From: Wenzhouxiangella sp. XN79A
GTDB taxonomy: Bacteria; Pseudomonadota; Gammaproteobacteria; Xanthomonadales; Wenzhouxiangellaceae
Reading direction: 5' to 3'
Length of the DNA: 37,931 bases
Assembly: GCF_012272825.1 (NCBI RefSeq)
Contig: NZ_JAAWWS010000163.1
Span: forward strand, 1 to 37,931
Below the pieces are notes generated by a model that saw nothing but the letters and a program-made list of their open reading frames with translations, did no database searches and had not been told where the DNA came from. Every line of letters begins with the position of its first letter. The stretch's first letter is position 1. The position numbers and the translations under genes were made by a program. Of this stretch, positions 34,821-37,929 are shown piece after piece.

Positions 34821-34917
34821 CTTCGAGATCCGGTCCGGATGGATGGGAGAACACCTGCGTTCGACCGGGCAGTATAACGAGCGCACCGGCCCGGAGCGGG
34901 CTGCTACACTGCCGCGA

Positions 34918-35805
34918 ATGAGCGAAGCCCCCATCACCGAACACGCCCCGGACGACGCTTCGGACCCGGCCGCCGAGCCGCGCCCCGATGCCGTGGAGCC
35001 GGAGCACAACCGCCAGCAGCAGATCCCGCTGGCCACGGTGCGCGGCGAGCCGCTGCTGAAGCTGCCCGACGACCTCTACATTCCGCCGGACGCACTGGAA
35101 GTCTTCCTCGACGCCTTCGAGGGCCCGCTCGACCTGCTGCTGTACCTGATCCGCCGGCAGAACCTCGAGATTCTCGACATCCCGATCGCCGAGATCACGC
35201 GGCAGTACACCGGCTACATCGAGATGATGCAGGACATGCGGCTGGAACTGGCCGCCGAATACCTGGTCATGGCCGCCATCCTGGCCGAGATCAAGTCGCG
35301 GATGCTGCTGCCCCGCCCCGAGCCCGAGGCCGAGGAGGAAGGCGACCCGCGCGCGGAGCTGGTGCGCCGGCTGCAGGAATACGAACGCTTCAAACAGGCC
35401 GCCGAGGACCTCGACCAACTGCCGCGCCTGGAACGCGACATCGCCGTGGCCAGCGCCGAGATCGTCGAACACAAGCCGATCCGGGTCCCGCCCGAGCTCG
35501 ACCTGAAGGAGCTGCTGCTGGCCCTGCGCGACGTGATGGCCCGCGCCGAGCTGTTCGCCCAGCACCATATCCAGTCCGAGCCGCTGTCGGTGCGCGAACG
35601 CATGAGCCGCATCGTGCAGTCGCTGAAGCAGAAGGAATTCGTCCGCTTCGAGGAAATGTTCGACCTCGAAGAGGGCCGCCTCGGCGCCGTCGTCACCTTC
35701 CTGGCCCTGCTCGAACTGCTGCGCGAGCACCTGGTGGACCTGGTCCAGCAGGAACTGTTCGGCCAGATCTACCTGAGGGCGCCGGGTGCGGAGGGTGCTT
35801 CTTGA
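34918..35805 (+). CDS. scpA: Segregation and condensation protein ScpA
   Basis: ScpA is the kleisin that bridges the SMC heads and binds ScpB. The 295-residue protein has an acidic disordered N-terminus (about 1-45) and then the conserved region VFLDAFEGPLDLLLYLIRRQNLEILDIPIAEIT. Next come the helical middle (EYLVMAAILAEIKSRMLLP) and the C-terminal winged-helix that contacts the SMC head (RFEEMFDLEEGRLGAVVTFLALLELL). The start MSEAPITEH at 34918 is preferred over the in-frame ATG at 34843, which would cover the likely promoter (TATAAC at 34873-34878). scpB follows after 175 bp filled with repeats. Confidence 0.96.
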   Translation: MSEAPITEHAPDDASDPAAEPRPDAVEPEHNRQQQIPLATVRGEPLLKLPDDLYIPPDALEVFLDAFEGPLDLLLYLIRRQNLEILDIPIAEITRQYTGYIEMMQDMRLELAAEYLVMAAILAEIKSRMLLPRPEPEAEEEGDPRAELVRRLQEYERFKQAAEDLDQLPRLERDIAVASAEIVEHKPIRVPPELDLKELLLALRDVMARAELFAQHHIQSEPLSVRERMSRIVQSLKQKEFVRFEEMFDLEEGRLGAVVTFLALLELLREHLVDLVQQELFGQIYLRAPGAEGAS

Positions 35806-35886: not shown

Positions 35887-35970
35887 GTTCACTGAAAACT
35901 GTTCACTGAAAACTGTTCACTGATAACTGTTCACTGAAAACTGTTCACTGATAACTGTTCACTGATAACT
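35887..35970 (+). repeat. Six tandem copies of a 14-bp unit upstream of scpB
   Basis: The unit GTTCACTGAWAACT is repeated six times without interruption. The variable base gives the series A, A, T, A, T, T. The array ends 10 bp before the scpB start, so it forms the whole scpB leader and covers the place where a ribosome binding site would lie. The unit contains no Shine-Dalgarno-like sequence. Confidence 0.95.
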
Positions 35971-35980
35971 GAATCCCCTG

Positions 35981-36940
35981 ATGGATCCCGACAAACTCAA
36001 ACAATACGTCGAAGCCGCGCTGCTGGCCGCCGGACAGCCGATGACGCTGGCCCAGTTGAACGGCCTGTTCGACGAGGACGAACAGCCCGGCCACTCGCTG
36101 TTGCGCCAGTCGTTGGCCGCGCTGGACGCCGAACTGGAAGGGCGCGCGGTCGAGCTGGTCGAAGTCGCCGGCGGCTACCGCCTGCAGGTCCGGCAGAAGC
36201 TGATGCCGGTCATCTCGAAGATGTGGGCCGAGAAACCGCCGAAGTACTCGCGCGCCCTGCTCGAGACCCTGGCCATCATCGCCTACCGCCAGCCGATCAC
36301 GCGCGGCGAGATCGAACAGATCCGCGGCGTTTCGCTGAGCGCGAACATCCTCAAGACACTGCAGGAACGCGAATGGATCAAGACCGTCGGCCACCGCGAC
36401 GTACCCGGCAAGCCCGAGCTGCTGGGCACGACCCGTGAATTCCTGGACTACTTCAACCTGAAGGGCCTGGACGACCTGCCGACGCTGGCCGAGATTCGCG
36501 ACCTCGACAACCTGGAACCCGAACTGCAGCTGGCCGATCCCGATCGGCCGGCAAGCGAGAGGCCGAACGATGAGCAAGCGAACGAAGCGGAACCCGAAGG
36601 CCCGCAGGAGCCGGACGAGCGAGACGAACAGCACCTCGACGAGCGACCGGACGCCCCGGAAGACCCTGTCGACGAAGAAACCGGCGGCGACGAAGAAGGC
36701 GGCGACGAAGAAGGCGAGGTCGAAGCCGGCGACACCGGCGGCCGGGACGACGAAGAAGACGACTTCGAAGGCTGCGACGAAGAGGACGACGAAGAAGACG
36801 ACGGGCCCGAACCGCGATCGCCGGACTTCGACGCCGACGAAGACGACGACGAACCCGACGACGCCGAACTCGAAGACGGCGAACAAGAAGACGGCGAACA
36901 AGAAGCGTTCGACGAAGACGACCAGCGTCGGCCGGACTGA
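35981..36940 (+). CDS. scpB: Segregation and condensation protein ScpB with long acidic tail
   Basis: ScpB is the winged-helix partner of ScpA in the SMC condensin. Residues 1 to about 165 are the normal protein: LKQYVEAALLAAGQPMTLAQL, GGYRLQVRQKLMPVI, PPKYSRALLETLAIIAYRQPITRGEIEQIRG, and KPELLGTTREFLDYFNLKGLDDLP. The family is usually about 180-220 residues; this one has 319. From residue 197 on, 67 of 123 residues are Asp or Glu and only six are Arg, with no Lys. That tail is read from the same DNA as the start of rluB in the +1 frame (36570-36940). ATG at 35981 follows the tandem 14-bp repeats and lacks a clear ribosome binding site. Confidence 0.95.
   Translation: MDPDKLKQYVEAALLAAGQPMTLAQLNGLFDEDEQPGHSLLRQSLAALDAELEGRAVELVEVAGGYRLQVRQKLMPVISKMWAEKPPKYSRALLETLAIIAYRQPITRGEIEQIRGVSLSANILKTLQEREWIKTVGHRDVPGKPELLGTTREFLDYFNLKGLDDLPTLAEIRDLDNLEPELQLADPDRPASERPNDEQANEAEPEGPQEPDERDEQHLDERPDAPEDPVDEETGGDEEGGDEEGEVEAGDTGGRDDEEDDFEGCDEEDDEEDDGPEPRSPDFDADEDDDEPDDAELEDGEQEDGEQEAFDEDDQRRPD
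36570..36940 (+). other. 371-nt out-of-frame overlap of scpB and rluB (dual coding)
   Basis: The rluB frame is +1 relative to scpB, since 36570 minus 35981 leaves remainder 1. Purine-rich runs such as GACGAAGAAG read as Asp-Glu-Glu in scpB and Thr-Lys-Lys in rluB, so one stretch encodes an acidic and a basic chain at once. In the rluB frame I find no ATG, GTG or TTG between 36941 and the S4 domain that begins near codon 145, so translation must begin inside the overlap; ATG 36570 is preceded by GAGAGG 7 nt upstream. Confidence 0.85.
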
Positions 36941-37808
36941 CCGCAAGCGACGCGGCGTCGACCGCGACAGCCGGCGGCCCGTCTCGACCCCGCCCGAAGC
37001 CGGCGAGCGGCTGCAGAAGCTGCTGGCCGGCGCCGGGCTGGGCTCGCGCCGCGCGCTGGAGACGAAGATCGCCGACGGCGCCGTGCGGATCAACGGCAAG
37101 CGCGCCGAGCTCGGTACACGTGCCGTCGAGGGCGATCGGATCCAGGTCGACGGCCGCAGCTTCACCGTTCATGCCGAACCGGCCCGCCACCGCACGCTGA
37201 TCTATCACAAGCCCGAAGGCCAGGTCACCACCCGCTCGGACCCCGAAGGCCGGCGGACGGTCTTCGACGCGCTGCCGAAGCCGCCGAGCGGACGCTGGAT
37301 CGCGATCGGCCGGCTCGACCTGAACACCGCCGGGCTGCTGGTGCTGACCACCGACGGCGAACTGGCCAACCGGATGATGCACCCGTCGGGCAACGTCGAC
37401 CGCGAATACCTGTGCCGGATCCGCGGCCGGGTCGACGATGCCGACCTGGCCCGGCTGCTCGAAGGCGTGCAGCTCGAGGACGGCACGGCCCGCTTCAGCG
37501 ACCTGGTCATCGGCGAGGAAACCGCCGGTCACACCTGGTACACCGTCACCATCATGGAAGGCCGCAACCGCGAAGTCCGCCGCCTGTGGGACGCCGTCGG
37601 CGCCCAGGTCGCGCGGCTCAAGCGCGTGCGCTTCGGTCCGATCTTCCTGCCCGCCAAGCTCACGCCCGGCCGCTGGCAGACCCTGAACCCGGCCGACCAT
37701 CGGGTCCTGCGAGAAGACGTCGGCCTGCCCGGCCGCGCCAACGAACTCCGTGCCTTCGACGACGCCAGACCCGAGCGCGAACCGAGGCCTCCTCGGCGTG
37801 GGCGCTAG
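36570..37808 (+). CDS. rluB: 23S rRNA pseudouridine synthase RluB with basic N-terminal extension
   Basis: RluB modifies U2605 (Escherichia coli numbering) of 23S rRNA. The 412-residue protein has an S4 domain (about 145-190, GERLQKLLAGAGLGSRRALE, DGAVRINGKRA) and the RsuA/RluB catalytic domain with IYHKPEGQVTT and catalytic Asp in IGRLDLNTAGLLVLTTDGELA. It continues EYLCRIRG, VTIMEGRNREVRRLWDAVG and LKRVRFGPI. The N-terminal 124 residues carry 38 Lys/Arg and only four acidic residues, in histone-H1-like runs (TKKAATKKA, TANKKTANKK), and are encoded entirely over the acidic tail of scpB. A charged N-terminal or C-terminal extension on RluB is known in other bacteria and may help RNA binding. 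Confidence 0.94.
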   Translation: MSKRTKRNPKARRSRTSETNSTSTSDRTPRKTLSTKKPAATKKAATKKARSKPATPAAGTTKKTTSKAATKRTTKKTTGPNRDRRTSTPTKTTTNPTTPNSKTANKKTANKKRSTKTTSVGRTDRKRRGVDRDSRRPVSTPPEAGERLQKLLAGAGLGSRRALETKIADGAVRINGKRAELGTRAVEGDRIQVDGRSFTVHAEPARHRTLIYHKPEGQVTTRSDPEGRRTVFDALPKPPSGRWIAIGRLDLNTAGLLVLTTDGELANRMMHPSGNVDREYLCRIRGRVDDADLARLLEGVQLEDGTARFSDLVIGEETAGHTWYTVTIMEGRNREVRRLWDAVGAQVARLKRVRFGPIFLPAKLTPGRWQTLNPADHRVLREDVGLPGRANELRAFDDARPEREPRPPRRGR

Positions 37809-37830
37809 TGGGCCACTCCTCGTGTGACGT
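37805..37830 (+). repeat. Second copy of the queC-end repeat motif, after rluB
   Basis: GCCACTCCTCGTGTGACGT (37812-37830) matches 18 of 19 bases of GCCACTCATCGTGTGACGT at 25235-25253. It is preceded by CTAGTGGGCCA (37805-37815), identical to the start of the hairpin at 25254. The rluB stop TAG lies inside this motif, as the queC stop does in the other copy. Confidence 0.7.
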
Positions 37831-37832
37831 AT

Positions 37833-37929
37833 GGAATGCGCCTGAATCGACAGTGCAAGGCGCGGCCCGCAGTGAATGGCCAGCCCTCTACAAGGGACCA
37901 ACGCCGGAATGTCGGTTCAGGCGCGCTCC
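37833..37929. repeat. Palindromic repeat at the right edge of the window
   Basis: GGAATGCGCCTGAATCGACA (37833-37852) is inverted at 37910-37929 with three mismatches. The 57-bp interior contains AAGGCGCGGCCCGC and ACAAGGGACCAACGCC, with no reading frame of note. It may continue past the window. It lies where a terminator for rluB would be expected but has no T run in view. Confidence 0.6.

Follow-up and report, generated by a model that had tools for sequence, protein, structure and literature searches.

Can one stretch of bacterial DNA encode the acidic end of a condensin subunit in one frame and the basic beginning of an RNA-modifying enzyme in another? The scpB-rluB locus of Wenzhouxiangella sp. 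XN79A raises this question. It lies in a 37,931-nt stretch of DNA (contig NZ_JAAWWS010000163.1 of assembly GCF_012272825.1, a genome of 3.75 Mb), which we refer to as the window. The two genes run on the same strand, with rluB in the +1 phase relative to scpB. Comparison with related genomes suggests that their overlap is a real and conserved case of dual coding, in which both frames are translated and selected, and we assign this reading a probability of roughly 0.8. The features of the locus are as follows.

35981..36940, + strand: scpB, SMC-Scp complex subunit ScpB (open reading frame of 319 aa; profile matches to PF04079 and TIGR00281)
36536..36937, + strand: acidic tail of ScpB, 134 residues with 70 Asp or Glu (residue count, structure model)
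36557..36562, + strand: GAGAGG, Shine-Dalgarno-like, 7 nt 5′ of the rluB ATG
36570..36572, + strand: ATG, start codon of rluB (sequence, start-codon search)
36570..36940, + strand: putative dual-coding overlap of scpB and rluB, 371 nt (reading-frame coordinates, codon counts)
36570..37808, + strand: rluB, RsuA/RluB-type 23S rRNA pseudouridine synthase (open reading frame of 412 aa with ATG start; profile matches)
36941..37004, + strand: rest of the RluB extension, from the scpB stop to the S4 domain, with no standard start codon

The initial annotation had described a 371-nt overlap in the +1 frame, and both this extent (scpB at 35981-36940, rluB at 36570-37808) and its charge counts proved correct. 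The last 123 ScpB residues, which form the overlapping part, contain 67 Asp or Glu (D/E), and the part of RluB encoded in the overlap contains 38 Lys or Arg (K/R) and 3 D/E. The claim that rluB has no alternative start before its S4 domain was also borne out: the ATG at 36570, which overlaps a ScpB Asp codon (GAT, 36569-36571), is the sole ATG, GTG or TTG in the rluB frame 5′ of that domain. A search of the same frame for the near-cognate codons CTG, ATT, ATC and ATA found CTG at 36666 and at 37011, the latter within the S4 match. The duplex of GAGAGG with the anti-Shine-Dalgarno sequence was calculated at -5.8 kcal/mol, on par with the best 15% of same-frame positions in the tail.

The protein names given earlier agreed with both Pfam and NCBIfam. 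ScpB carries an SMC_ScpB domain (PF04079, E 3.7e-51, 173.3 bits against a curated cut-off of 27.4) and matches TIGR00281 with 121.9 bits (cut-off 89.2). Its folded part ends near residue 180 and is followed by the acidic tail, which lacks regular structure in a model of low overall confidence (mean predicted local distance difference test score, pLDDT, of 55). RluB contains an S4 domain (PF01479, residues 146-191, 31 bits, cut-off 22.8) and a PseudoU_synth_2 domain (PF00849, residues 209-339, 63 bits, cut-off 26.8), and its match to TIGR00093 (178.2 bits, cut-off 109.3) places it among the RsuA/RluB-type enzymes. The finer assignment was less complete, as the best NCBIfam match, PRK10700.1 (RluB), scored 276 bits, under its equivalog cut-off of 290, although far above the models for RluF (95.9 bits) and RsuA (90.4 bits). 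The product is RluB-like by these profiles, and we use the name RluB in that sense. Residues G247, R248, L249 and D250 were invariant across nine aligned sequences; we take the catalytic Asp of RsuA/RluB-type enzymes to sit in this GRLD motif. The N-terminal extension of RluB is about 143 residues long, and residues 1-143 had a pLDDT under 50 in the model.

We then asked what chance alone would give by keeping the ScpB residues fixed and redrawing synonymous codons from local codon usage. In XN79A, 92% of resamplings left the +1 frame of the overlap open, and the 38 K/R seen compare with an expected 35.9. Across the 31 overlap loci described below, the share of draws with an open +1 frame ranged from 51 to 100% by locus (product 0.008), and the net charge of the RluB tail was close to that of the resampled tails (19 of 31 above, mean z 0.25). 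That the RluB tail is basic thus appears to be largely mechanical, and its openness and charge prove little, because resampled ScpB codons give nearly the same. An argument of the form "open and basic +1 frame, therefore a gene" was rejected on this ground, since acidic codons are expected to yield such a frame. These figures fit an account in which ScpB alone has a real tail here, translation of RluB begins downstream at a non-standard codon, for which the CTG at 37011 is available, and the open basic frame is a by-product of GAN-rich codons. If that account held, codon usage should not shift at the rluB ATG, a point on which relatives supply data.

Two long antisense open frames also span the overlap (36453-37901, - strand, 482 codons; 35945-37165, - strand, 406 codons). 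They are probably by-products of the GC-rich, T-poor sequence.

Among 43 genomes of the family, 34 loci fell within one clade in a tree of the ScpB and RluB domains (60 rows; support 100/99), five (L038-L042) lay outside it, and four genomes were unusable: in G003 (L045) scpB is joined to rluB at a contig end, in G065 (L037) the contig has no scpB, and nothing in G023 or G066 matched at the cut-off. L044 is a duplicate of L027, and L147 and L148 repeat G040 and G051. The named relatives are Wenzhouxiangella and Wenzhouxiangellaceae. In 31 of the 34 clade loci no stop interrupts the rluB frame along the ScpB tail, so that both frames are open and kept across species. The first ATG or GTG of rluB lies 110-371 nt 5′ of the scpB stop in these 31 loci, all lengths being of the form 3k+2. 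Counted from the last ATG or GTG, 27 loci overlap by 60 nt or more and 24 by 100 nt or more. In Wenzhouxiangella sediminis XDB06 (L009/L070), the sole candidate ATG is 305 nt 5′ of the scpB stop. The overlap tests were made on the 31 loci, that is, excluding L022, L030 and L031, and some also excluded L006 and L029. Controls were 52 acidic ScpB tails from outside the clade (median 29% D/E); those for the composition, start-boundary, synonymous and codon-position T tests omitted L067-L077.

The three clade exceptions have short overlaps of 4 nt (L022 and L030) or 17-23 nt (L031), and acidic ScpB tails are present in L030 and L031. In L022 (= L075, PXBD01000050.1, 1600-1760), scpB stops at the rluB ATG after a frame change; the lost acidic frame is still readable beneath rluB, and a 43-residue basic RluB extension is kept. 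As assembled, this locus shows that the acidic ScpB tail can be lost while the RluB extension stays; it comes from one metagenome-assembled genome (MAG), in which a sequencing error is possible. Outside the clade, L038 and L039 have short arrangements. L042 combines a ScpB tail of 225 residues (71 D/E) with an RluB extension of 12, and in L040 and L041 ScpB tails of 47 and 33 residues accompany RluB extensions of 121 and 114. In the neighboring rows L032, L049 and L066 the last possible start lies 17 nt 5′ of the scpB stop. Other gammaproteobacterial loci, among those listed, mostly have overlaps of a few nucleotides or gaps, and a few have starts further upstream.

Two further observations concern this arrangement. 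In L040 (from 2212) and L041 (from 2017), a basic RluB extension of about 100-120 residues begins directly after the scpB stop; a basic RluB tail therefore exists without a long overlap. In L045 (about 2180-2500 of G003:C181), the 5′ part of scpB continues in frame, close to a shared CGATTGCA, into the S4 domain of rluB, which would be either a deletion or a mis-assembly at the contig end.

The relatives bear directly on a downstream start. The rluB frame was open in all 31 overlaps but in only 17 of 52 control tails, and the ScpB tail was cut in one of 34 clade loci, the MAG locus L022, so that neither frame is regularly broken by stops. In 30 of the 31 loci there is no standard start 3′ of the scpB stop, the one exception being L004. 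Codon choice also changed at the rluB start. The share of GAT among Asp codons in the clade was 21/282 (7%) in the overlap and 116/321 (36%) in the ScpB domain, whereas control tails (43%) resembled their domains (40%). In XN79A itself, none of the 32 ScpB Asp codons in the overlap is GAT, whereas all three in the tail 5′ of the overlap are, including the one that shares bases with the rluB ATG.

More generally, T/(T+C) at scpB third positions fell from 43/220 before the first rluB ATG to 70/823 after it (Fisher p 1.3e-5). Because the T of a codon followed by G can itself make a start codon, we repeated the count on codons whose next base is not G. The drop persisted, both at the first ATG (36/131 before, 24/286 after, p 8e-7) and at the last start (46/193 and 12/212, p 1.5e-7, 30 loci), while controls treated in the same way had no significant drop at either point (52/164 and 347/961 in 50 loci; 101/292 and 26/101 in 21 loci, p 0.11). 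When all codons were counted from the last start, the controls also dropped, from 316/940 to 38/287, which tells against that form of the comparison: requiring that no further start follows in itself removes GAT codons that precede a G. We therefore rely on the debiased or first-ATG counts alone and do not take the all-codon last-start count as proof. Two loci with starts nearer the S4 domain, L006 and L029, were not T-poor between their first and last starts (14/56 and 12/52 codons).

The composition of the +1 frame pointed the same way. Relative to resampling, the residues FILVWYC changed by -5.8 per 100 codons in the 31 overlaps and by +2.0 in the 52 control tails (Mann-Whitney U test, p 1.9e-10), Met by -2.0 and +0.7 per 100 codons, and K/R by +2.65 and -3.0. 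In 29 overlaps T occupied 2.4% of scpB third positions and 5.1% of first positions; the corresponding shares in 34 GC-matched control tails were 12.8% and 6.2%. The depletion is thus specific to scpB position 3, which is rluB position 2; a second frame kept open and poor in hydrophobic residues would disfavor T there. At shared Asp residues, synonymous differences in 11 sister pairs numbered 2/39 in the overlap and 29/100 in the domain (p 0.0015), and 33/120 and 27/87 in 12 control pairs (p 0.64). The suppression of synonymous variation that would be expected of two coding frames was therefore found at Asp codons; at Glu and Gln codons of the sister pairs it was not significant (22/90 and 86/257, p 0.15). 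The best Shine-Dalgarno energy averaged -5.7 kcal/mol, against -3.0 for same-frame tail positions; in the 15 loci that offer just one candidate start, the mean was -5.4 kcal/mol.

Selection was detectable in both frames by resampling, composition, boundary and synonymous tests. On these comparisons, chance accounts for neither the conservation of the arrangement nor the codon bias setting in at the rluB start. Codon choice in the 31 overlaps, set against the 52 control tails, supports the earlier suggestion that both frames are in use. With a drop in T at the ATG that controls lack and that survives the removal of start-forming codons, we regard a downstream non-standard start of RluB as very unlikely.

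Several results nevertheless weigh against dual coding or limit it. The CTG at 37011 is, by sequence, a candidate non-standard start. L004, the sister of the XN79A locus, has an ATG just 5′ of the S4 domain and so need not use the overlap; the 4-nt and 17-23-nt overlaps of L030 and L031 mean that loss or a later origin is possible. Shine-Dalgarno pairing is weak in some loci (-1.9 kcal/mol in L016, -0.2 in L019), and its mean takes the best of several starts, which favors it. The unused +2 frame, open in 18 of the 31 overlaps, also differed from the resampled sequences, with K/R up by 10 and stops down by 3 per 100 codons, because third positions are T-poor and A-rich; the K/R excess of the +1 frame is therefore not specific, and D/E in the +1 frame were slightly above resampling as well (+0.98). 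When synonymous differences were taken over all residues, overlaps (p 0.0083) and controls (p 0.011) were both below their own domains. Divergence at the three codon positions in 14 pairs was 0.40, 0.37 and 0.46; tails diverge fast and align poorly, and high divergence at all three positions is by itself no sign of dual constraint. The control set of this last comparison included the clade duplicates L067-L074, and it is used for no claim. Finally, the statistics treat loci as independent despite their shared ancestry.

Which of the two frames came first? With RluB residues fixed and codons redrawn, ScpB was more acidic than the draws in 31 of 31 loci (mean z 3.2), and the ScpB frame looks like the primary one. 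If instead the basic RluB tail were older and scpB had read through its old stop into it, the acidic tail would be the newer frame. Elongation of the 3′ end of the upstream gene is the commoner route to overlaps according to the available text of PMC3887535, long basic RluB extensions occur without a long overlap in L040 and L041, and L022 has kept its RluB tail without a ScpB tail. However, RluB residues leave the acidity of ScpB unexplained, ScpB residues largely explain the charge of RluB, and acidic ScpB tails are common among the controls and also occur in L030 and L031, while L040 and L041 lie outside the clade. We consider an older RluB tail improbable. The scpB frame is probably the older, with the rluB start having moved into it, because the RluB sequence does not explain the acidity of ScpB. 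As to origin, the idea raised initially of a plain extension in another frame, later fixed, is the best supported.

Under this origin, the rluB start would have shifted upstream, in an ancestor of the Wenzhouxiangella clade, into a scpB tail that was already acidic and unfolded, in the +1 phase. RluB would thereby have gained an unfolded N-terminal tail rich in Lys, Arg and Thr, since GAN-rich codons read in +1 become codons of the AAG, ACG and AGG type. Ribosomes would initiate rluB at an ATG within scpB, often behind a Shine-Dalgarno-like sequence, so that both frames are translated, and selection would since have kept scpB acidic and rluB open and poor in hydrophobic residues.

Whether the RluB tail does anything is a separate matter. 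The initial annotation had raised the possibility that the two chains touch, and binding of the oppositely charged tails would link condensin to an rRNA enzyme; every one of the 31 overlap loci does pair an acidic ScpB segment with a basic RluB segment. The genetic code itself ties the two charges together, though, and the tails are found apart in L022, L042, L040 and L041, which leaves such contact unnecessary and unsupported, and we give it next to no credence. A second possibility is translation without benefit, in which a neutral overlap became fixed by chance and persists since RluB has no other start, its tail doing no more than not harming RluB; this is compatible with the core claim of dual coding. 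The mostly mechanical charge of RluB, the fast divergence of the tails (ScpB tail identity 0.20-0.57 in 14 pairs), the range of first-start overlap lengths (110-371 nt) and the accounts of long phase-1 overlaps arising without selection in the accessible parts of PMC2542354 and PMC3887535 all suit it. It fits less well with the exclusion of hydrophobic residues and T and the slight excess of K/R, which imply that at least harmful tails are removed, or with the basic 43-residue extension kept in L022, a single MAG, after loss of the ScpB tail. Neutrality is a serious possibility, though we lean away from it. If the dual-coded tail has a role, the most likely one, which we put forward tentatively, may be to help RluB bind rRNA or ribosome precursors through non-specific electrostatic interactions.

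Long co-directional overlaps have a poor record. In its available portion, PMC2478687 ascribes all 715 co-directional overlaps of more than 60 bp to annotation errors, most often a wrongly chosen start where a usable later one exists; the longest real case it gives is holD-rimI of Enterobacteria (up to 56 bp). Since that survey, as far as its available text goes, accepted none of the 715, a conserved overlap above 60 bp is notable. The scpB-rluB overlap resembles holD-rimI as a conserved co-directional terminal overlap and is longer (110-371 nt by first start). It differs from the dismissed cases in lacking a later standard start in 30 of 31 loci and in the codon bias of its second frame. Its phase and its proposed origin by a moved start or stop codon recall the long phase-1 same-strand overlaps of PMC2542354 and PMC3887535, which, in the sections available, are surveys and models; the statement in the available text of PMC3887535 that phase-1 overlaps cannot be short fits the absence of 1- and 4-nt overlaps in the +1 phase. 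rnpA-rpmH of Thermus is likewise a pair of same-strand bacterial genes in different frames, and an excerpt of PMC9841429 reports both genes as expressed. According to the same excerpt, rpmH is fully nested, the two AUGs lying 1 nucleotide apart at one start site; in scpB-rluB the gene ends overlap and the rluB start lies deep within scpB. Hydrophobicity and disorder profiles survive a +1 shift in the part of PMC7084103 that is accessible, as they do here, but in scpB-rluB the sign of the charge flips while both chains look unfolded. In the open-licence papers searched, we found no report of a scpB/rluB or Wenzhouxiangella overlap and no useful report on an acidic ScpB tail. The scpB-rluB pair is a same-strand terminal overlap unusual in its length, spread and charge inversion.

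Upstream of the locus, between scpB and the open reading frame at 34843-35805, presumably scpA, positions 35887-35971 hold 6.1 copies of a 14-nt unit (GTTCACTGAAAACT/GTTCACTGATAACT). A 22-nt pair pattern taken from this array had two matches in the genome, both at 35887-35971.

Long bacterial co-directional overlaps are usually dismissed as wrong starts, and scpB-rluB offers a counter-example with a comparative test. The test draws on numerous species and on outgroups that lack the overlap; relatives whose starts lie nearer serve as internal controls, and the bias sets in at the start codon of rluB. If translation is confirmed, annotation rules that trim long overlaps would cut real N-termini. 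The locus is a concrete case in which one frame shift can turn an acidic unfolded tail into a basic unfolded tail on an RNA-modifying enzyme. By way of a +1 start in a GAN-rich region, the genetic code readily leads from a disordered acidic tail to what is usually an open, K/R/T-rich and RNA-binding-like chain. It is possible, though less likely than not, that in this clade a +1 start in a GAN-rich acidic tail gave an rRNA enzyme a useful RNA-binding tail, and that similar cases go unnoticed wherever annotation rules rule out long co-directional overlaps.
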